Positions 92-27,950 of a stretch of 27,950 nt of DNA are shown piece by piece; position 1 is the stretch's first letter; each line of letters opens with the position of its first letter. A model generated the notes under the pieces. That model worked only from the letters and a program-made list of their open reading frames with translations. It was not told where the DNA came from and did not search any database. The position numbers and the translations under genes were made by a program. The stretch lies in IMG/VR virus record IMGVR_UViG_3300009788_000261, positions 1 to 27,950 of that record; one strand, written 5' to 3'. The stretch comes from a virus.

Positions 92-811
92 TGGCACACT
101 CCATATCCACTAATCAATGCAACTGTAGGTGAGATGAATCTAGTCGAGATTAAAGTCTATGAGAATGGTGGCATTAATAATATGAAATTGGTACAGTTTG
201 GTTTAGGTGCTGAAGAGATAGGTGTTCCATTAAATTCCCTTGAAGTGTTAATTGAGGTACATTTAATCTCTAATGGCACAAATACAGGTATCAATGTAGA
301 TGAGATTGTCATTAATGATAAAGATAATCTAATTGATAATGATACAGTTACAGCTGTATCTTATGCTGTAACATGTCAGGATTCTGATGGTGATGTACTC
401 AGATGTGTTAAAGTAGATTTAGAGTATTCATATCGTGAAGAAACATTCAATCATATTATGATGATTAATGTAGTGGATAAACCTAGAAATTCACAGAATT
501 TCTACTTTAATGATGGTGTCCAAGTATTAGGTGATTCCCTAAATGAACCACCAACATACAAAATGTCAAATAAACATCTTAAACAGCAAACAGAGAATCT
601 TTATCTAACCTTAACTAGAACAGATAAAATTAATTACATTTGGACAGATGAGCTTGGTGTAGAATATCTACAAGTCTCTAGTGATAGATTTGATAGAATC
701 ACACCACATGAATCATACCAATGTACAGATCCACCACTAGCTGAAATTAATGTTCCAACTAGGAAAAATTGTCACTTTAGAGACTTGACTAGTCTTTGGA
801 GTTATCAATAG
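1..811 (+). CDS. Secreted beta-propeller protein, C-terminal part (continues from window end)
   Basis: This is the 3' part of a 602-residue gene that starts at 26862 and crosses the circular seam; base 1 is the third base of a Cys codon. The part encoded here, about residues 333-602, follows the propeller. It resembles a C-terminal domain I know from thaumarchaeal secreted proteins, with the typical stretches CTPPTLGLDKN, VDDGFVYNG, LTRTDKINYIWTDELGVEYL and NVPTRKNCHF, and several Cys residues. There is no hydrophobic C-terminal anchor and no PEFG-type sorting tail, so the protein may be released or held non-covalently at the surface. A TTG at 14 could be mistaken for a start codon, but the upstream frame is open and continuous with 27950. 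Gene of probable host origin; role in the virus unknown. Confidence 0.85.
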   Translation, partial: TPPTLGLDKNFKRVVDDGFVYNGISTQVEKWHTPYPLINATVGEMNLVEIKVYENGGINNMKLVQFGLGAEEIGVPLNSLEVLIEVHLISNGTNTGINVDEIVINDKDNLIDNDTVTAVSYAVTCQDSDGDVLRCVKVDLEYSYREETFNHIMMINVVDKPRNSQNFYFNDGVQVLGDSLNEPPTYKMSNKHLKQQTENLYLTLTRTDKINYIWTDELGVEYLQVSSDRFDRITPHESYQCTDPPLAEINVPTRKNCHFRDLTSLWSYQ

Positions 812-843: not shown

Positions 844-1329
844 GTGAGAAAACAACTGGTATCAACTGGAAGATCTAAGGGTGGTAAGACCACAAAAACT
901 CAAAGCTTACAACGACAGGTACATGTTGAGAAATTTATGAAGATGGGTTATGGTGTAACTAAAATTGCATCAATGAAAATTAATGGCAAGAAACTAGGTG
1001 CATTAGATACCATTTCAAAAGACATAAAAATTATTAATTCAAGGTGGCTAGAGTCTGATCTAGAATGGTTTCATAGAGCTAGCGTTGCAAGGATTGAGGC
1101 CAAACAAAGATTATTAGAACAAATGACAAGATTAGGCGATTTAATTTTAAAATTAAAAGACGATGAAGATAATCACAAAACTCTAGTCTATACAGAATCA
1201 CAACTAACTACAGTCATTACTAAAATCTATGAGATTGATGCAGACTTTGACCCAGAACAATACGTCAATAAAAAAATACAGGAGTCAGTAGATGTTAAAA
1301 TCAAAGAAGCAGAAACAACAATTAGTTGA
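844..1329 (+). CDS. terS: Terminase small subunit (probable)
   Basis: This is a 161-residue basic, mostly helical protein directly upstream of the terminase large subunit, overlapping it by 38 nt. It probably recognises viral DNA and recruits the packaging motor. Residues 1-25 are Lys/Arg-rich. Residues about 30-70 look like a helix-turn-helix of the kind seen in small terminases (GYGVTKIASMKINGKK, then a predicted recognition helix). A coiled-coil stretch follows (RIEAKQRLLEQMTRLGDLI), then an acidic tail suited to oligomerisation and large-subunit contact. The GTG start is supported by the promoter box 32 nt upstream. The identification rests on position and fold impression, because small terminases are poorly conserved. 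Confidence 0.6.
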   Translation: MRKQLVSTGRSKGGKTTKTQSLQRQVHVEKFMKMGYGVTKIASMKINGKKLGALDTISKDIKIINSRWLESDLEWFHRASVARIEAKQRLLEQMTRLGDLILKLKDDEDNHKTLVYTESQLTTVITKIYEIDADFDPEQYVNKKIQESVDVKIKEAETTIS

Positions 1330-2317
1330 TACCTTTCTGGAAGCAAATTACCCAGAACTATTAAAACATCTAGATACATTAGATTTAGCCCCAGTTGATA
1401 ATATTCCTTCTGATCTAACTGAATTTTATAACAATGTTGGATATTTCATCAATCAAAAAACAAACGAGTATGTAGAGTTTCTAGCACCACATCAGATACA
1501 ATGCTGGAATGACAGAGAGTTATCTCAATATAGATTATATCTAAAGTCTCAAAAAATTGGTCTCTCCACTATGATATTGCTAGAAGATCTACACATTGCA
1601 TTAACTGTAGGTAGAGGTAAAGAGATTCTAATCATATCTCAATCAAAAGAAAAAGCAAAAGAGCATATCCAGGATTTAAAAAAGATGATAGGCAATTCAA
1701 TCTATGTTGACTTTTTAATTGACAGAGCAATTACTGAAGAAGAACTATTACGAGATGAACGCTCAAAAATTGATACCATCTATTTGAGAAATCCTGCAGA
1801 TCCTAATAGACCAACTAAAATTATAGCTCTTGGTATTACATCAGCTGGTTCACTGATTTCATTTAAACGAGTATGTCACATTCACATGTCTGATATCACT
1901 TTAGCTGATATGACTGAAGATAGATTTGTCGAAGCATTTGGTGGTGCATTTAGTAGACTTGCAAATACTGATGGAACTATGGTAATTGAATGTCCACCAC
2001 GAGGACCATCAGGACCAGTTTTTAATATTGTAGATGAAGATGATTCACTCAAAGGAGATGGAATTGCAGTTGAACTAGAAGAAGGCAGAAAAATACAAAC
2101 TCCATCTGGAATTATGGTTAGAAAGTATACATATCAAGTTGGAATTGATTGTGGAATGATTACTGAATCATTTATAGAAAAAGAAAAACAAAGACTTGGA
2201 GTCTTATTTGGGATGTACTATTTAGCTGACTTTTATTCAACTGACCAAACTTGGTTTTCCAAGGATTCAGTTAATCAAATCTCCCAAGAAGCTACTGAGG
2301 TGTATGATGCCTTTTAG
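1292..2317 (+). CDS. terL: Terminase large subunit, ATPase part (frameshifted)
   Basis: This 341-residue frame carries the packaging ATPase. A Walker A-like motif KSQKIGLST lies at residues 84-92, a divergent form like the KSRQxGxS of other large terminases. ILIISQSKEKAKEH follows as in the family, then a Walker B-like strand ending HIHMSD near residue 195-200, and CPPRGPSGP near residue 233. The frame stops at 2315 in CCTTTTAGG. In the +1 frame the protein continues at once with the nuclease domain. Reading three T instead of four would join residues YDAF to RIDDYELFIGMDP. The intact enzyme, 1292-2995, would be 567 residues, normal for a large terminase. The start overlaps the small subunit gene, implying translational coupling. 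Confidence 0.85.
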   Translation: MLKSKKQKQQLVDTFLEANYPELLKHLDTLDLAPVDNIPSDLTEFYNNVGYFINQKTNEYVEFLAPHQIQCWNDRELSQYRLYLKSQKIGLSTMILLEDLHIALTVGRGKEILIISQSKEKAKEHIQDLKKMIGNSIYVDFLIDRAITEEELLRDERSKIDTIYLRNPADPNRPTKIIALGITSAGSLISFKRVCHIHMSDITLADMTEDRFVEAFGGAFSRLANTDGTMVIECPPRGPSGPVFNIVDEDDSLKGDGIAVELEEGRKIQTPSGIMVRKYTYQVGIDCGMITESFIEKEKQRLGVLFGMYYLADFYSTDQTWFSKDSVNQISQEATEVYDAF

Positions 2318-2675
2318 GATTGATGATTATGAATTATTCATTGGCATGGACCCAGCTATTGTTGGGGATTATTTTGGAATAGCAATACATGCATTACCAA
2401 CTGCTATTCCTGAAGACAAACCTTGGATGCCATTACTCATCAAGCTAATGCAATTACAAAAAAAGTCATACAAATCAACCTGGGAGGAATTAACAGAAGG
2501 ATTACTAGCAAAATATGTAAACTTTCGAGCAATTAACATTGATTATACAAATGAAAAGACACTAGCTGATTTTCTAGAATACAAGTATGGAGATGATAGA
2601 GTCAAAAAGACACCATTTACCAAAGGAGAATCTGGAACTAAAATGCAGATGGCAAAGAGTTCAAGACTTTTTTAG
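2304..2675 (+). CDS. terL: Terminase large subunit, nuclease domain N-terminal part (second frame)
   Basis: This 123-codon frame, +1 relative to the ATPase frame, holds the start of the RNase H-like nuclease that cuts concatemers. FIGMDPAIVGDYFG has the first catalytic Asp, and AINIDYTNEKTLADFL has the second acidic strand. Two ATG codons at 2304 and 2307 could allow separate initiation, but no promoter box or Shine-Dalgarno sequence precedes them. The domain lacks its third catalytic motif, which lies in yet another frame from 2642. I read it as the middle third of one terminase gene and not as an independent gene. Confidence 0.75.
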   Translation: MMPFRIDDYELFIGMDPAIVGDYFGIAIHALPTAIPEDKPWMPLLIKLMQLQKKSYKSTWEELTEGLLAKYVNFRAINIDYTNEKTLADFLEYKYGDDRVKKTPFTKGESGTKMQMAKSSRLF

Positions 2676-3008: not shown

Positions 3009-3026
3009 TTATCATTGTTTTTAATT

Positions 3027-3233
3027 ATGGCAGATGGTGATATTCGTACAGTTGTTCTTCCACTTACATTGGATTATCTTGCTCTAGCTGATCCAAATAA
3101 TATATTTCTAGATATTGGTGGTGGTTTTAGTACTACTACAACTGATATAGTATCTACTAGTATTGTAGATGTCTCTGGCAGAAACACTGTTAGAAAAGCA
3201 GTAATCACTCTAACTGGTAGAAGTATTGCATGA
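3027..3233 (+). CDS. Small tandem paralogue 1, unknown function
   Basis: This is a 68-residue protein, probably beta-rich (MADGDIRTVVLPLTLD, then KAVITLTGRSIA at the end). It shares with the two following genes the layout M-x-(D/N)-G-(D/N/E)-I, PxTLD near residue 15 and a C-terminal V-x-GR or ARD strand. I chose the ATG at 3027 over a TTG at 3015. It lies 31 nt after the promoter box and sits in the TTATG context shared by the paralogues. Function is not recognised. Position between terminase and portal, and a private promoter for each copy, would fit abundant small virion proteins, which is inference. Confidence 0.7.
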   Translation: MADGDIRTVVLPLTLDYLALADPNNIFLDIGGGFSTTTTDIVSTSIVDVSGRNTVRKAVITLTGRSIA

Positions 3234-3275: not shown

Positions 3276-3479
3276 ATGGTAAATGGCAATATCTCTTATG
3301 CACGTTTCCCAATTACTTTAGATATTGATGCTCCCGCAGATACCTCACCTCAACTTGCATTAACTACTAATTTTTTTCTAGCTGCATTTGATAATATGAT
3401 GTTTGAGATAATACCTATGACTGGTGGAAGTGGAAAAAGTAAAGCAGTGGTAGTAGTATTGGGAAGAGAGTTAGTATGA
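3276..3479 (+). CDS. Small tandem paralogue 2, unknown function
   Basis: This 67-residue protein is closest to the next gene. Both have the pattern M-x-(N/D)-G-(N/E)-I-x-YARFPITLD, then a DTSP block, then a glycine loop GGSGKS followed by a hydrophobic strand (KAVVVVLGRELV). The GGSGKS loop resembles a P-loop only superficially: it is near the C-terminus of a tiny beta protein with no Walker B and should not be read as a nucleotide site. Monocistronic, with its own box. Function unknown. Confidence 0.7.
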   Translation: MVNGNISYARFPITLDIDAPADTSPQLALTTNFFLAAFDNMMFEIIPMTGGSGKSKAVVVVLGRELV

Positions 3480-3520: not shown

Positions 3521-3724
3521 ATGCCAGATGGTGAAATATTTTACGCAAGATTCCCAATTACATTAGATTCAAATGGTGTTCCTGATACTTCTCCTGTACT
3601 TCAAATAGCAACTATATTTCCTGCTGCTAATTTTGATAGTATAACAACTAAAATTGTTCCAATCAGTGGAGGAAGTGGAAAATCTAATGCTGTTATGATA
3701 GTTTTTGCAAGAGATATTACATAG
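3521..3724 (+). CDS. Small tandem paralogue 3, unknown function
   Basis: This 67-residue protein is a clear paralogue of the gene at 3276. It has YARFPITLD near the N-terminus, DTSPVLQIAT in the middle, and PISGGSGKSNAVMIVFARD at the end. Conservation of the YARFPITLD and GGSGKS blocks with divergence between them suggests two structural cores and a variable middle. Function unknown; a capsid-decorating or scaffolding role is possible from context only. Confidence 0.7.
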   Translation: MPDGEIFYARFPITLDSNGVPDTSPVLQIATIFPAANFDSITTKIVPISGGSGKSNAVMIVFARDIT

Positions 3725-5813: not shown

Positions 5814-7229
5814 ATGTATCTTCTAGCTAAGGAAATTCCAGAATCAAATTTACTTACAAACTGGAAAGGACGAGAGGGAAAATTTGTTAGAACATTCGGC
5901 ATGAACTCTGAGAGAAATAAAAACGAGTGGCGTGCAACATGGGATTCTATAAAGAAATACATTCACACAGCATTACAATTTCCTGGAATAGAATATGAAG
6001 TGTGCAGAGCTGATGGATGCGATTTAGATCATGTAGAGGCTGATACCTTTGAGGAAAATCTTGCAAAGCAAAAGCCCTTTGAGAGAACAAAAATTATTGA
6101 TTTCATATTAGATGAAAAAAACGAATCAGTAGATCTAATTCACGAAGTAAATAGTGATGAATTTTGGGAAAAACTAAAAAAACGAGAGATAAAATACGTA
6201 TCTCCACTTATCTGGCCTCTAGTAAATGGTGTTCAAGTATTAGGTCATGGACGAGACGATTTACCAATTATTGACACTACTGCTTGGAAATTTGTTCATC
6301 ACGCATTTTTGAAGAATAATCCTGCATATGGCACTGATATTGCTACTGTCAAGACAATGTGTGATGGAGTAGACTGTGATGTAAAATTACTACAAGGAAA
6401 ACTATCAGCTGATACTACAACTGCTAATCAAGAAAATATTTCTAATCTGCAAGAAATACCATTACTGTACAAACACAAGGGACAATTAATTTTGTTATCA
6501 GCTAGTGAATGTGTACAAAACAAAATTAAAGAAAAAAAAGATTCTGGAATTAAAATTGATGACCAAGCTTTAGCTATTACATTTTCTGAATGTGGAGAAT
6601 CAAGAGGTAAGAAAGCAAAAAGTTCTTTTAAAACTTGTTCTTGCACTGCTAAACAGAATAGTATGCCTGACGATGAATCTCTAAAAAAAGAAAATGATGA
6701 GCTAAAAGCAAAGCTTGCAGCTCAAGAGGAAAAACAAAATGATGAAAAATCTCATGCAGCTCGTAAAGGCAGATATGCAAAACTTTTTGCAAATATAGAT
6801 GAAGAAGAACGCGAAAAAATGGTTGCAAGCTTACGTGGAGCTGAACATGAGAAAGACGAGCTCAAAGCTGCACAGGAAGTTGATGAAGAAATGAAGAAAG
6901 CAAAAAAGGCACTTCATGAAGGTCCAAAAAACGAAAAGATGATGGCTAGACTCTCAGCACTAGAAGCTAAAGCCTCAACTACAATGATTGAAGATTTGGT
7001 ATCACTAAAATCCAAAAACGGTCTTGCTGCAAAAGATGTAAATGAATATCATGCATCACTAAAGGGAAAAACATATGATGAAATTTTAAGCAAATATGAT
7101 GATAATATATTTGAAATTAAAAACATGAAGGCATCAACTACAAAAAGTGATGACTTTGAGTTTAATGGTGGTGAGTTAACTGCCCTTAAGGGTAAAACAT
7201 TCTCAGAAATTGCGGAGGTTAGCGTATAA
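5814..7229 (+). CDS. Capsid maturation protease fused to scaffold (probable)
   Basis: This 471-residue protein lies between portal and capsid genes. The N-terminal part includes YVSPLIWP (from about residue 127) and HHAFLKNNPAYG (from about 161). These recall the SP..F and ALTNNPAL blocks of Mu I-like prohead serine proteases, making the Ser of YVSP a plausible nucleophile. From about residue 284 to 365 it is an Ala/Glu/Lys-rich coiled coil, typical of internal scaffold, and the C-terminal 100 residues would bind the capsid protein. Such fusions cleave themselves out of the prohead. Four Cys around residues 184-188 and 278-280 are unusual for a scaffold. It overlaps the next gene by TAATG. 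The protease call depends on short motifs. Confidence 0.6.
   Translation: MYLLAKEIPESNLLTNWKGREGKFVRTFGMNSERNKNEWRATWDSIKKYIHTALQFPGIEYEVCRADGCDLDHVEADTFEENLAKQKPFERTKIIDFILDEKNESVDLIHEVNSDEFWEKLKKREIKYVSPLIWPLVNGVQVLGHGRDDLPIIDTTAWKFVHHAFLKNNPAYGTDIATVKTMCDGVDCDVKLLQGKLSADTTTANQENISNLQEIPLLYKHKGQLILLSASECVQNKIKEKKDSGIKIDDQALAITFSECGESRGKKAKSSFKTCSCTAKQNSMPDDESLKKENDELKAKLAAQEEKQNDEKSHAARKGRYAKLFANIDEEEREKMVASLRGAEHEKDELKAAQEVDEEMKKAKKALHEGPKNEKMMARLSALEAKASTTMIEDLVSLKSKNGLAAKDVNEYHASLKGKTYDEILSKYDDNIFEIKNMKASTTKSDDFEFNGGELTALKGKTFSEIAEVSV
7214..7219 (+). promoter_or_regulatory. Shine-Dalgarno sequence for the decoration protein
   Basis: GGAGGT lies 9 nt before the ATG at 7229, inside the end of the scaffold gene. 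It shows that genes inside units use a Shine-Dalgarno sequence although first genes appear leaderless. Confidence 0.6.
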
Positions 7230-18386: not shown

Positions 18387-19099
18387 TGGCAGTAGTAGAA
18401 CAAGTTAGATTTAGTATTTTTTCACAACAAGAAATACAAGAATTACAAAATGATGTTATAGAGATTGAAGATCTAGCAGAAAGAAAAAATATTGCAGAAG
18501 AAAAAATACAACAATCAAAACTAGCTAGAAGAGGAGGAATATTTGCACCAAATGAATTAGATGCGACATTACCAGCAGCAATTACCAAAAAACAGGGAAA
18601 TGCGTTAATTAGTAGAGTAGATGAATCAAAACTTGCAAATTCTGTAAAGTCAACTGACAAGACATCAGCTGCACCATTTGTTAGAAGTAGTTCGTTTAGA
18701 CAAATAAAAGACGATGTTGATTTACTAAAAGAAGGACAGAAAAAAACTAAAGATGCACTTTCATTCTTAACTGACTTTCAAGGAACAGCATTTACAAAAT
18801 TATTAGGTGCAGCAAGTAATTTTCTACCTGTTGGATTTGCATTATCTGTTGCTACTACAGTTTTTGCATTAATCCAAGCTCAGTTTGGAGCTGGTGGAAT
18901 ATTTGATACTAGAAAACGAGAATTAGATTCTGTAAAATCTCTAATTGGATTAGAAAGAGAAACTGACATTATTGGAGGTGACACACTATTTCTTGGCAAT
19001 CCTACTTTAGTTCAAGGCATTGCAAGAAACCAAACAAGCAATACTGAGAATCTGCGAGATGGTCAAAGAAGATTCGTACTAAGGAGTAATGGTTACTAA
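18386..19099 (+). CDS. Short tape measure protein (tentative)
   Basis: This 237-residue protein occupies the tape measure position, between tail tube and baseplate. Residues 12-48 and about 103-130 are strongly helical with coiled-coil character (EIQELQNDVIEIEDLAERKN; IKDDVDLLKEGQKKTKDALS). Residues about 146-168 (FLPVGFALSVATTVFALIQA) form a hydrophobic segment such as tape measures insert into the host membrane. At the usual relation of about 1.5 angstrom per residue it would specify a tail of only some 35 nm. The start follows GGTGATC, which pairs with the archaeal 16S rRNA 3' end. The alternative is a membrane-active tail tip protein. Confidence 0.45.
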   Translation: MAVVEQVRFSIFSQQEIQELQNDVIEIEDLAERKNIAEEKIQQSKLARRGGIFAPNELDATLPAAITKKQGNALISRVDESKLANSVKSTDKTSAAPFVRSSSFRQIKDDVDLLKEGQKKTKDALSFLTDFQGTAFTKLLGAASNFLPVGFALSVATTVFALIQAQFGAGGIFDTRKRELDSVKSLIGLERETDIIGGDTLFLGNPTLVQGIARNQTSNTENLRDGQRRFVLRSNGY

Positions 19100-19308
19100 T
19101 GCCCTTTACTAGTCCTGCCATCTATTTTAGAACAGTTTCATCTACTGCTTCAATAACTCCAGATCCATCAAATCTCCCATCAGATCAAATCTTACAGTTT
19201 GATTCTGAAAATAATATAGTTGAACTTGTAGATAACGCATATCAAAATAACGTATCAATAGATCCTGCTACAAACCCTGATGGTAAAAAAAACATTCCTA
19301 CAAGATAA
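19099..19308 (+). CDS. Baseplate-associated protein, N-terminal part (frameshifted)
   Basis: This 69-codon frame opens at a TAATG junction and ends five codons after an A8 run. Its last residues before the run, NPDGKK, continue naturally in the +1 frame as TFLQDNGRLEDIVTV. With seven A, 19099-19591 would be one gene of 163 residues. Small beta proteins of this size before the hub usually belong to the baseplate or distal tail. I regard this frame and the next as halves of one product. Confidence 0.55.
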   Translation: MPFTSPAIYFRTVSSTASITPDPSNLPSDQILQFDSENNIVELVDNAYQNNVSIDPATNPDGKKNIPTR

Positions 19309-19591
19309 TGGTAGACTAGAAGACATTGTAACAGTTAGTGGAAAACTACAAAATGCAGATTCTGTATTTATCAACAAGCTAAAATCCTTTGCTCGTAAAT
19401 TACAAATAGAGCCAGTATTTCACAAATTTGGTATATTTGGTCTTGCATATCCTGTTACTGATTCTTTTGATCTTGATCCTACAGATGAGGTAGGATATTT
19501 TATAGATAAATTACAAATTACAACTTCAGGCCAAAGCAAGTTTGTTGTTTCATTTATCCTGACGTTAAAAACAGGCGGTACTTTAGTTTAA
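19280..19591 (+). CDS. Baseplate-associated protein, C-terminal part (frameshifted)
   Basis: This is a 103-codon frame if started at the ATG at 19280, which lies inside the previous frame just before the A8 run. The bulk is a compact alpha/beta domain (INKLKSFARKLQIEPVFHKF, then GYFIDKLQITTSGQSKFVVS, ending LTLKTGGTLV). No promoter box or Shine-Dalgarno sequence supports 19280. Joining to the previous frame is simpler. It ends in a TAATG overlap with the hub gene. Confidence 0.55.
   Translation: MVKKTFLQDNGRLEDIVTVSGKLQNADSVFINKLKSFARKLQIEPVFHKFGIFGLAYPVTDSFDLDPTDEVGYFIDKLQITTSGQSKFVVSFILTLKTGGTLV
19285..19292 (+). other. A8 run at the frame change between the two baseplate frames
   Basis: The sequence GGT-A8-C sits exactly where the upstream frame must shift by one base to continue. 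Runs of eight A allow polymerase or ribosome slippage and are also a usual place for base-calling error. Confidence 0.6.
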
Positions 19592-22266
19592 TGTCTTCTG
19601 TAATTTTATCATATGAAGCAAAGATTACACTAATTGATAGGACAGCCCCAACTGTTACTCCAGTTACTATTGCAGGTGATACAACAGGTTCTCTTGGAAC
19701 AGGAACTGATTATTTAGTTGATGTAAAATTAACTTCTTCTGGAATTAAAAAAACAAGAAATGGTGTATTAAAACTTCGTTCAGTAGATGGAATATTCATT
19801 ACAAATGGACCAATTCTAATTGATTCAGAAACCAAATCAAATTTTTGGATTGATGCTCAAATTATCCAAAAGGATTCTAACGAAATTGACATTGAAGGTG
19901 AATTATTTCGATTCCAGATAGGAACACCAATTATTGAAAATACAGATAAGGGATTATTTCTAACTCTACCACTTTCTGCAGTTGAATATAGATTAAGAGA
20001 ATCATTAGATTCAGAGCAATTAATTTTACAAACACCAAAAGAGGCGTTTACTACTAGAATTCTTAATTATTTTAATCATCAAGGACCAGATGCACCGTTA
20101 ATTGTAATTAACAATCCTGCAGATATAGATCTACCTGATGATAACGTTTTAAAACAAAATTGGTTATCACAAGGACCAGTTACTGCACAACGTTCACTTG
20201 TTGAAATTATTGAAAGACTTGCAAATCCTGGAGTAGTTGGCGGTTCATTTACAGATTTTTATTATTTCTTTGAGCCTGATCCTAACGCAACAAAAACAAT
20301 ATTCATCAAAGCAGAAGAGTTTGGAGCTAGATCATCAGGTGTAATACTTGATGTGTTGGCACCAAGTGGAACTACAGTTGAGGAGAAACAAACATTTCAG
20401 ACAGATAATCTGAGATTCAAGGATGTTGTAATTGCAAGAGGTGCAAACAGTGTTCATAGATTACCAATGGAGCATACTAGATTTGCATCAGATGTAGAAC
20501 ATGCAAAGGTATCATTAGCTTACAATGCAGGAACTAACTATGTTAAAGGAGATTATGTACGATTTGATGTTGGTAGTGGTGTTATCCAACTATTCAAATC
20601 TCTAGTGGATAATAATCTGAATAATCAACCCGATATATCTCCAACTGAGTGGAATAATCTAAGTACATCAATAGAATTCTCACCATGGACTAATGATGCA
20701 GATTTTTGGATTACAAATTCTGCAGGACATGCTAGCCCTCCTGCACCATTTGTAGGATTTGCACTTGATATGAATTTGGCAAGAGCTGATTATGATAGAA
20801 ATGATCTTTATAATGAATTTGAGACGATTACTTTCAAATGGGTTACAAAGATTGGTGTTAATGATCCAACAAGTGAACCAGTTGATGAAATTTTTGAAGG
20901 CCAAAGATTTATTGTTGGAACTTCTCCAACAGGTGATTTTGCAGGACAGGCAAACAAGCTAGCACAATTTGATACATCAGTAATTCCTGCAGTATGGAGA
21001 TTCTCAAATGATCCAATCTTTGTTGCAGGTAGTCCACCACAACAAGACAGTGTATTGGATTTAGAGACTGGACAGATATTCAAGTTTGATGGATCTGTAT
21101 GGGTAGTAGCTTGGACTTTATCAACTGATGCAGGAATATCATCACCACTACATCCAATCAAAAGTATTACAAATGTTCTAGGTGCTACTGATGTACTTTC
21201 TGCAATAGAGTATGAATTTGATTGGGATACAGTATCTGATGTACAAAATCAAGCAAGTAGAGGTGCATGGTGGCATTTGTTTTTTCCATTGCCAAGACAA
21301 GCAAATGGTGGTGCAGGAATTGCAGTTGGTGATTTGTATAAACAACCAATATTGGATTTTATTAATTTAGATATTACACCAAAGGGATTAACTGGTTGGA
21401 ATAACGGTTTAGATTCTGAAGATCTTGGAAACCTTCGTGGAATAAATGTAAAGATGAGATTATCAATTCGTGATAATTCCAATGATCTAGTTGATTTTAT
21501 TTATGACATGCCTATAGTATGGTGGTTTCTTGACAAGTTTGATAGGATTGTATATACTGAAACTAAAATTCGCAGAAATGGTGAATGGGATACTATAGCA
21601 TTTCCTGCAGGACCAGATGCTAAAATGCAATTATATGACAATAGAATTGATGAATTAGTAACACTTCTTGGATATACTTTACCATTTAATTTCTTTTTGC
21701 AAGAAAAAGAATATACTGGTGTAAGATTTGATTGGAGAAATGTAAAAGCTATGGGTTGTTTTTACAAAGATGCATATGATCAAAACTTTTTTTACAAAAA
21801 TGCTGAAACTGATTTATTTGATAATTTCATTCAACACATTACACAAGTAGGACTACAACTATTATCTGGATTTGAAGAACCAGTTGCTAATGTAGTAATT
21901 GATACTGCAAAATTAGCATTAGATGAACTTACACTGATCAAGGATTCTTATGTATCAAGTAGAGATGCATCACAAAATGATTCAAGACAAAAACTGTCTA
22001 GCTTAACATCTCAAAGCGATTACATCAATATGAAAATTCTAGCAGAAGGAATTGAGGTAAGAGAAGCATTTTTCCCACAATTTCAAACACTAGATGGATA
22101 TGGAGATGTACGATTAAGATTAGGATTGACATTTGTAGCTCAGGGAACTAGAGTGCCTAATAGTCCTTTAACAATGGTAATAGGTGAAGTAACTCATTCT
22201 GTTACACAAAATCAAGGATATAGAGTAGAAGTGATAGGAGTGAATAAATTTGTTATATCATCATAG
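19591..22266 (+). CDS. Baseplate hub / tail tip protein with carbohydrate-binding insert (probable)
   Basis: This 891-residue protein follows the tape measure and is the largest tail gene apart from the long fibre. The N-terminal 300 residues look like a gp27/Dit-Tal type hub: many strands, then PKEAFTTRILNYFNHQGPDA and a jelly-roll-like region. Residues about 310-358 (YVKGDYVRF, then FKSLVDNNLNNQPDISPTEW) match the CBM5/12-like pattern Y-x-x-GD-x-V, F/Y-x-(A/S), N-x-xP, W, so it may bind glycans. A second glycine-loop domain (residues about 445-510) repeats the theme (GQIFKFDGSVWVVAWTL). The C-terminal part is again hub-like and ends in beta strands (GYRVEVIGVNKFVISS). The protein would seal the tail and contact the cell wall. 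Confidence 0.55.
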   Translation: MSSVILSYEAKITLIDRTAPTVTPVTIAGDTTGSLGTGTDYLVDVKLTSSGIKKTRNGVLKLRSVDGIFITNGPILIDSETKSNFWIDAQIIQKDSNEIDIEGELFRFQIGTPIIENTDKGLFLTLPLSAVEYRLRESLDSEQLILQTPKEAFTTRILNYFNHQGPDAPLIVINNPADIDLPDDNVLKQNWLSQGPVTAQRSLVEIIERLANPGVVGGSFTDFYYFFEPDPNATKTIFIKAEEFGARSSGVILDVLAPSGTTVEEKQTFQTDNLRFKDVVIARGANSVHRLPMEHTRFASDVEHAKVSLAYNAGTNYVKGDYVRFDVGSGVIQLFKSLVDNNLNNQPDISPTEWNNLSTSIEFSPWTNDADFWITNSAGHASPPAPFVGFALDMNLARADYDRNDLYNEFETITFKWVTKIGVNDPTSEPVDEIFEGQRFIVGTSPTGDFAGQANKLAQFDTSVIPAVWRFSNDPIFVAGSPPQQDSVLDLETGQIFKFDGSVWVVAWTLSTDAGISSPLHPIKSITNVLGATDVLSAIEYEFDWDTVSDVQNQASRGAWWHLFFPLPRQANGGAGIAVGDLYKQPILDFINLDITPKGLTGWNNGLDSEDLGNLRGINVKMRLSIRDNSNDLVDFIYDMPIVWWFLDKFDRIVYTETKIRRNGEWDTIAFPAGPDAKMQLYDNRIDELVTLLGYTLPFNFFLQEKEYTGVRFDWRNVKAMGCFYKDAYDQNFFYKNAETDLFDNFIQHITQVGLQLLSGFEEPVANVVIDTAKLALDELTLIKDSYVSSRDASQNDSRQKLSSLTSQSDYINMKILAEGIEVREAFFPQFQTLDGYGDVRLRLGLTFVAQGTRVPNSPLTMVIGEVTHSVTQNQGYRVEVIGVNKFVISS

Positions 22267-26557: not shown

Positions 26558-26585
26558 TTCTTTTTTATAAAAATCTCTGTTAGAC
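26558..26585. terminator. Bidirectional T-rich terminator between convergent genes
   Basis: The gap between two convergent genes holds T6 at 26562-26567 on the plus strand and A5 just after it, which reads as T5 on the minus strand. T runs without strong stems suffice for archaeal termination. Confidence 0.5.
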
Positions 26586-26729
26586 TTATCTCTGATTTCT
26601 TAGTGCCTTTAGTGAATATTCTATTGCATGACTTCTTGATGAAAATCTTGCAGTATCCTCAGTTTCTTGATCTATCCAATCTATTAGATCTTTTGAGATC
26701 GTAACACTTATCTGAATTTTTTTAGTCAT
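26586..26729 (-). CDS. Ribbon-helix-helix (CopG/Arc-like) transcription regulator
   Basis: This 47-residue protein is the only convincing minus-strand gene. It begins MTKKIQISVTISKDLIDWID, where the beta strand KIQISVTI would enter the DNA major groove as a dimer ribbon and KDLIDWIDQET is helix 1. RFSSRSHAIEYSLKAL follows as the turn and helix 2, including the conserved (S/G)RSxxIexALxxL pattern. It is too short for many gene finders. It is divergent from the secreted propeller gene across a 132-bp region with candidate operators, which it probably binds, including its own promoter. The start ATG at 26729 lies about 26 nt from a CTATACGA TATA-like box on the minus strand. Confidence 0.8.
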   Translation of the reverse strand: MTKKIQISVTISKDLIDWIDQETEDTARFSSRSHAIEYSLKALRNQR

Positions 26730-26861
26730 TAGTTTTCAATATTAAATCGTATAGTCATTAAGATACCCTTATAAAGTAGTATAAAATGATTGAAAATAAT
26801 ATGAAGTTTTATCTATCATACGATATACTGATAATATCTAAATGTTGGATTTGGAGATAAG
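26730..26861. promoter_or_regulatory. Divergent regulatory region with candidate regulator operators
   Basis: This 132-bp gap separates the regulator gene from the secreted propeller gene. ATCGTAT at 26746-26752 and its complement ATACGAT at 26818-26824 are inverted arms. The first overlaps the TATA-like box of the regulator gene. A plus-strand TTATAAAG at 26769-26776 could drive the propeller gene with a leader of about 60 nt, and GGAG at 26853-26856 is its Shine-Dalgarno sequence, 5 nt before the ATG. The usual TTC box is absent, so these two genes are controlled apart from the virion genes. Confidence 0.5.
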
Positions 26862-27950
26862 ATGAATATACTATGCATAATTCCAATCTTGTTTTTTCTA
26901 TCTATGATATCTACAAGTAGCATTACTCCAGCATTTGCTCAAGTAGTTTGGTCTGAACAGGTTAGCAGTACACCAAACAATCTAAATGATATATTTTTTA
27001 TTGATGCAAATAAAGGCTGGGCTGCAGGTGATGGTGGAACAATAATATACACTGATAATGGTGGTATGGGTTGGATTGATCTGGGTACTGGTATTATTTC
27101 TGAGAATATAAATTCCATATTTTTTCCTACTCCAAATAATGGTTTGGCTGTAGCTGATAATGGAATAATACTATACACTGAAGATGGCGGTGATAATTGG
27201 ATTACAATACCAACTACCTTTCAAAATAATCTAAATGATGTATTTTTTATTGATCAAAATATTGGCTGGGCTGCAGGTGATGGTGGAGTAATACTATACA
27301 CTGAAAATGGTGGTGTGGAATGGATTGTTCTGGCTACTGTTTCTGAGAGGAACATAAATTCCATATTTTTTACTAATGCAAATAATGGTTTTTTAGTAGA
27401 TAGTAATGGACAAGTAGCTGTCACAACAGATGGCGGTACTACTTGGATTGTTACTCATCGTATCAGTAATGTTGATGAAGTAAATGATATATTTTTTATT
27501 GATGAAAATAATGGTTGGGTTGTAGGTAAGGCTGGAATAGTGGCATATACTACAGATGGTGGTAAAATTTGGTGGGCAGCGATGATTAACTCTACTAATC
27601 CTTTAAATTCCATATATTTTATTGATAAAAATAACGGTTGGGCTGTTGGAGATAGTGGAGTAATGTTTACTTCCACAGATGGCGGTAAAAATTGGGATAA
27701 ATTATCTAGCTTTACTTCTGAGAACCTAAATTCCATATATTTTACTGCTGCAAATAATGGTTTGGTTGTTGGGAATAATGGGGTACTATTTACTATGTTT
27801 GCAGATGAAGAGAAAGATGAACTTCCACCAAAGAAATCAAATGGAGGTTGCGCTGACTGTACTCCTCCAACTTTGGGATTAGATAAAAATTTCAAAAGAG
27901 TAGTGGATGATGGCTTTGTATACAATGGTATTAGTACACAAGTAGAGAAA
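26862..27950 (+). CDS. Secreted seven-bladed beta-propeller protein, N-terminal part (continues at base 1)
   Basis: These 363 codons, open to the window end, continue in frame at 1-811 for a full product of 602 residues. Residues 1-26 are a signal peptide with a hydrophobic core (IIPILFFLSMI) and cleavage site PAFA before Gln27. Residues 42 to about 328 hold seven repeats of about 42 residues, alternating N-D-(I/V)-FFID and N-S-I-(F/Y)-F starts, each with a GW..GD.G turn and a T-(D/E)-x-GG-x-x-W Asp-box-like end. They match YCF48/BNR-type repeats and should close one seven-bladed ring. A Cys-containing linker (GGCADC) leads to the thaumarchaeal-type C-terminal domain. It would be exported from the infected cell; receptor masking, adhesion or a host-derived surface role are possible but unproven. 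Confidence 0.8.
   Translation, partial: MNILCIIPILFFLSMISTSSITPAFAQVVWSEQVSSTPNNLNDIFFIDANKGWAAGDGGTIIYTDNGGMGWIDLGTGIISENINSIFFPTPNNGLAVADNGIILYTEDGGDNWITIPTTFQNNLNDVFFIDQNIGWAAGDGGVILYTENGGVEWIVLATVSERNINSIFFTNANNGFLVDSNGQVAVTTDGGTTWIVTHRISNVDEVNDIFFIDENNGWVVGKAGIVAYTTDGGKIWWAAMINSTNPLNSIYFIDKNNGWAVGDSGVMFTSTDGGKNWDKLSSFTSENLNSIYFTAANNGLVVGNNGVLFTMFADEEKDELPPKKSNGGCADCTPPTLGLDKNFKRVVDDGFVYNGISTQVEK
27860..27950. repeat. Direct terminal overlap, right copy
   Basis: Identical to bases 1-91, so the unique length is 27,859 bp. See the left copy for interpretation. Confidence 0.9.

Follow-up and report, generated by a model that had tools for sequence, protein, structure and literature searches.

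Ammonia-oxidising archaea account for much of marine nitrification, and ammonium is trapped at their S-layer, the S-layer protein of N. maritimus being Nmar_1547 (8C8K; PMC11153153). Thaumarchaeal integrated elements carry an S-layer-like protein and plastocyanin (PMC6563490), and HFTV1, a tailed virus of archaea, uses an S-layer protein to recognise its host (PMC9973310). In bacteria, CwpV of Clostridioides difficile, an anchored surface protein composed of a constant and a variable part, blocks phage infection after adsorption (PMC4737114). Do the viruses of ammonia-oxidising archaea also act on the surface of their hosts? In the literature that we searched, nothing was found on surface conversion or exclusion in these archaea. 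If viruses rewrite the archaeal surface, the virus susceptibility, the adhesion and perhaps the ammonium uptake of living cells could change.

Here, we describe a gene in the virus record IMGVR_UViG_3300009788_000261, of which the whole stretch of 27,950 nucleotides was analysed (the window). Its product appears to combine an exported beta-propeller with a domain that recurs in secreted proteins of the presumed host.

Results

The window encodes a large terminase ATPase (1292..2317, plus strand; phrog_2, 5.7e-11), which is preceded by a small-terminase-like (TerS) ORF (844..1329, plus strand), named from its position before the large terminase (TerL) and matching no family. The closest relative is another IMG/VR record, G003 (51.7 kb, with a 144-base end overlap), whose terminase ATPase is 85% identical, and the portal-like protein is 81-90% identical in G003, G153 and G154. 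More distant terminases are found in Nitrosopumilaceae genomes, one of them adjoining an integrase-like ORF. Since relatives of the terminase occur in Nitrosopumilaceae genomes, and the proteins compared with named phage records have no relative there, the host is most likely a Nitrosopumilaceae archaeon. Among 50,697 named phage records, no match was found to the propeller, the C-terminal domain, the capsid protein or the head protein at 5814-7229. The ATPase and nuclease halves of the large terminase have separate genes; the nuclease is represented by ORFs of 123 and 50 aa in the window (2304-2675 and 2843-2995), by one 227-aa ORF in G003, and by two tandem nuclease-like ORFs in both G153 and G154. 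Between the terminase and portal-like genes of the window, there are also three tandem paralogous small ORFs of 67-72 aa (3015-3233, 3276-3479 and 3521-3724), all matching one 88-aa ORF of G003.

The gene under study begins at the right end of the window, where a frame opened at 26862 stays open to the last base (26862..27950, plus strand; 363 aa, running off the end) and covers the signal peptide, the propeller and the first 34 residues of the C-terminal domain. Positions 1-91 repeat 27860-27950 exactly and in direct orientation, which would mean either that a circular contig overlaps at its ends or that the repeat is internal. Joining the ends at this 91-base overlap gives a single frame of 602 aa that continues at 92..811 (plus strand; residues 364-602) and stops at 811, in line with the proposal of the first-pass annotation that the gene resumes at 1-811. 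Alternatively, the overlap may be an assembly artefact that fuses two paralogous genes with this C-terminal domain, the true genome being about 45-52 kb with a block missing between them. The complete relatives G003 and G154 (46.7 kb) indeed hold an extra 16-24 kb between a holin-like gene and TerS that is absent from the window, and genes with the C-terminal domain sit at different positions in G003 and G153. However, the overlap is exact and in frame, homologues of the 602-aa protein align straight across the join, and each relative has one such gene, so that we regard an artefact as unlikely, though still worth keeping in mind. A collapsed assembly would change residues 364-602 and the neighbourhood, and not the nature of the gene as an exported propeller followed by the beginning of a host domain: the pairing of the domains is independent of the join, because the contiguous right end already reaches 34 residues into the C-terminal domain. 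The region of the window in which the block is missing is 26558-27950 and 1-843, and neither a replication gene nor an integrase was found in the 27,950 bases.

The protein starts with a 26-aa signal peptide recognised by eye (MNILCIIPILFFLSMISTSSITPAFA|Q; 26862..26939, plus strand) with a cleavage site AFA|Q. It is followed by a seven-bladed beta-propeller of YCF48/BNR type (residues 27-316; 26940..27809, plus strand), which matches Pfam PSII_BNR/YCF48 with E=8e-31. The repeat has a period of 41 residues, the identity at that lag being 0.30 compared with a maximum of 0.15 in 1000 shuffles, and the seven repeats start at about residues 40, 82, 123, 164, 205, 247 and 288, two of them placed by eye. 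An AF2 model (pLDDT 72.6) was matched by Foldseek to the solved Ycf48 structure 5ojr (E=1.6e-19, TM 0.73/0.80). The propeller is not a Ycf48 orthologue, since it scores 140 bits against an equivalog cut-off of 326 (NF010237/PRK13684). It is acidic, with 2 Arg, and a short acidic linker connects it to the C-terminal domain, which begins at C330 (CADCTPPTLGLD...; 27849..27950, plus strand, delimited by alignment with host and viral copies) and contains six cysteines (330, 333, 458, 468, 574 and 590). A low-confidence model of this domain (pLDDT 58.7) shows an Ig-like beta-sandwich, for which Foldseek returned nothing beyond generic Ig-like hits at E above 0.001 and no significant PDB match; the domain is absent from Pfam, NCBIfam and PHROGs. 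The signal peptide cut at PAFA/Q, the seven regular blades and the Cys-containing C-terminal domain reminiscent of host secreted proteins, all described in the first-pass annotation, are thus recovered here by inspection, by Pfam, periodicity and structural comparison, and by the profile search described below, respectively. A YCF48 propeller also ends a 1097-aa phage protein that has no signal peptide and is probably structural (L124:7658-10951).

Upstream of the gene, a divergent ORF of 47 aa (26586..26729, minus strand) resembles ribbon-helix-helix (RHH) regulators, with a weak match to a PHROG transcriptional repressor (E=0.003), which agrees with the divergent regulator noted earlier. An imperfect inverted repeat (71%; arms 26729-26752 and 26818-26841) spans the intergenic region at 26729..26841 as a candidate operator, and TATA-like boxes (26770-26776 and 26780-26786) and a GGAG (26853-26856) could be discerned by eye. 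A sigma-70 promoter scan gave 8 hits with 5.1 expected, this bacterial model being uninformative for an archaeon. The divergent RHH-like ORF and the inverted repeat suggest that the gene has its own regulation. The gene does not clearly stand apart from the virion operons as first thought, for a gap of 32 nt separates its end from the TerS-like ORF, which has the same orientation, and its homologue in G003 lies 33 nt before TerS. Late read-through with the packaging genes is equally possible.

Based on a profile built from the window and G003 copies, the C-terminal domain was identified in 61 of 151 Nitrosopumilaceae genomes, some of which have as many as ten copies. Scans with a single sequence against viral and genome contigs found nothing, and alignments were required. 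The 53 host proteins collected are mostly exported and carry the domain at or near the C-terminus, behind heads as various as YCF48 propellers, NHL/SMP-30 propellers, SpaA/SdrD adhesin modules, cupredoxin and SBBP-type repeats (L005). The window protein fits this family both in layout (signal peptide, by eye; variable head; C-terminal domain) and in the consensus CxDCxPPTxGxD...(N)G...C...C...ND/HG, as judged from the profile, the alignment and a tree with the 53 host copies. When Nitrosopumilaceae genomes and viruses were searched for the domain pair, YCF48 with the C-terminal domain was found in host chromosomes, and the viral copies of the C-terminal domain outside the window had other heads. 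The closest full-length homologue is a chromosomal protein of 706 aa in Nitrosopumilus sp. LS_AOA (L041:3887-6007), which aligns co-linearly with residues 49-555 of the window protein (30%, E=3e-53) and is encoded between a phosphoribosyltransferase gene and housekeeping genes. In addition, a partial pair lies beside pyrimidine and respiratory genes in G092, and G121 has a relative of the pair with a diverged end. No donor of the propeller stands out, similar scores being obtained for the blades of the host pairs, for a separate host fragment and for phage proteins.

Three other viral records carry the C-terminal domain behind different N-termini. The G003 copy (742 aa) is exported and, with its different head, likewise stands just before TerS; the G153 copy (399 aa) belongs to another operon; and the G155 copy has 605 aa. 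No other gene in common was found between G155 and the window by tblastn, and the protein is absent from G154, a complete close relative. The copies of the window, G153 and G155, that is, three of the four viral ones, end in C-x-D-P-x-L-x(6-12)-R-x-N-C-x-[FW], which in the window is CTDPPLAEINVPTRKNCHF (residues 574-592; 719..775, plus strand). This Cys motif occurs in no host copy, nor in G003, and its presence in three viral copies argues for a viral subfamily rather than host DNA. In the tree of the domain, the viral copies lie on deep, long branches between two host subfamilies. With three viral rows they split apart, and with four, G153 and G155 are sisters (99/97); a single viral clade is neither supported nor rejected (p-AU 0.129 and, with four viral rows, 0.112). 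Consequently, the recent host-to-virus transfer for which such a tree had been proposed is not seen, given the deep viral branches and a motif of three copies that the hosts lack. We infer from the four viral copies that the gene may be accessory cargo long resident in viruses, with exchange of heads, because G155 has the gene without any other common gene and G154 lacks it; the patchy distribution and the movement between viruses expected of such cargo are seen in G153, G154 and G155. Two of these records hold further genes of note: a group II, thermosome-like chaperonin of 531 aa in G155 (18415-20010, in L137), and in G153 an ORF at the contig end with a cupredoxin-like start, of plastocyanin type by eye (G153rc 1-783, the reverse of L080).

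In G003, there is also a gene for a complete S-layer protein of 1630 aa, homologous to that of N. maritimus (L055:13114-18006, minus strand; 1458 bits to 8C8K), and one for an exported serine protease resembling alpha-lytic protease (L055:7034-8218, plus strand; E=1.2e-6). Complete S-layer proteins were found as well in three viral contigs of another lineage (L147:3933-8843, L148:4968-9758 and L149:5601-10259), with portal-like and head genes beside the S-layer gene. In a tree with 19 host S-layer proteins, the four viral ones group in a single clade of their own (SH-aLRT 99, without bootstrap). Named phage records contain no such S-layer protein, and a literature search of partial coverage returned no report of virus-encoded ones.

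Discussion

Judging from the sequence, the best overall explanation would be a protein exported to the surface of the infected archaeal cell, belonging to a host secreted-protein family that has been kept as a viral subfamily; we give this reading a little short of an even chance, and export to the surface, taken by itself, is very probable. Expression would start from the divergent promoter under RHH control, or result from read-through together with the packaging genes, or both. Export by Sec and cleavage after AFA are a strong inference from the N-terminus. Host and viral members share the Ig-like C-terminal domain, which would then anchor the protein at the S-layer or envelope, as its constancy behind many heads suggests. 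Finally, the swappable head, here the acidic seven-bladed propeller, may bind an envelope component and mask or alter a receptor, whereby superinfection, or the loss of progeny on receptors, could be blocked. Such exclusion or receptor masking is favoured because the head varies among viruses, as would be expected in the face of changing receptors, because an S-layer protein serves HFTV1 as its receptor, and because genes for host-surface proteins are present in the sister virus G003. However, adsorption of HFTV1 was not subject to superinfection exclusion (PMC9973310), and no integrase is seen in the window virus. In both the window and G003, the gene directly precedes TerS and could be co-expressed late, a timing less suited to exclusion. 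This particular role is consequently put forward only tentatively.

The main rival would retain export and change the target: an exported adhesin may alter cell-cell or cell-particle adhesion, as a conversion for spread or persistence, rather than virus entry. Propellers are common binding platforms, and some members of the host family have the adhesin-type SpaA/SdrD modules, but the viral heads share no adhesin module, and we consider an adhesin rather unlikely. The 32-33 nt spacing to TerS in the window and G003, together with the exported protease of G003, could instead point to an exported factor for late egress, which would loosen the S-layer or keep progeny off debris. This is improbable, given that the window protein has no enzymatic motif, that the gene is located elsewhere in G153 and G155, and that the RHH-flanked promoter suggests separate control. 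As for the cell-surface functions that the first-pass annotation derived from export, a role on the surface of the infected cell stands as the best reading, and recruitment into the virion does not. A receptor-binding or decoration protein of the virion would agree with the adjoining packaging genes and with the YCF48 propeller in the probable structural protein of the phage L124, but the latter lacks a signal peptide. Since assembly of tailed virions takes place in the cytoplasm, a signal peptide that is cleaved off argues against a place in the virion; moreover, the gene lies outside the tail module, upstream of TerS, and it is not kept with virion genes in close relatives, being absent from G154 and present in G155 without any common virion gene. 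We therefore reject the virion receptor-binding protein as very improbable. Could the segment be host DNA misassembled into the contig, the objection raised from the outset? The same domain pair does exist in host chromosomes, but the syntenic homologue before TerS in G003, the viral-only motif, the viral relatives and an identity of only about 30% to any host copy render this scarcely credible, and host contamination is rejected.

Because related and unrelated viruses carry versions with another head, it is probable that these viruses of ammonia-oxidising archaea modify the surface of infected cells. It is conceivable, if somewhat doubtful, that their tailed viruses have in common a dedicated envelope-remodelling set, consisting of a modular exported virus-specific subfamily, with a constant Cys-motif C-terminal domain and exchangeable heads and passed between unrelated viruses, and of complete S-layer proteins as a clade of their own. 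The genes named here are direct objects for testing surface conversion or exclusion.

Compared with known systems, the window protein is most like the host protein of L041, with which it shares the signal peptide, the YCF48 blades, the C-terminal domain and co-linearity; the latter is, however, chromosomal, has a longer C-terminal tail and lacks the viral motif. The photosystem II assembly factor Ycf48/HCF136 (PDB 2xbg, 5ojr) belongs to the same sequence family and has the same seven-bladed fold as the window propeller, which differs in being acidic with 2 Arg, in its additional C-terminal domain and in having no connection with photosynthesis. CwpV is comparable in the way it works, with its constant and variable parts and a block resembling superinfection exclusion, but it is host-encoded, bacterial and unrelated in sequence. 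Nmar_1547 is likewise an exported host envelope protein, a homologue of which is carried by a virus, the close relative G003, although both S-layer proteins are unrelated in sequence to the window protein. The thaumarchaeal integrated elements, as does the window virus, bring host-type exported proteins onto mobile DNA; they are, however, cryptic and integrated, and no such propeller is reported there (PMC6563490). The window gene is thus of a known kind, a host-type surface protein on a virus, and what is new here is the viral subfamily with its exchangeable heads.
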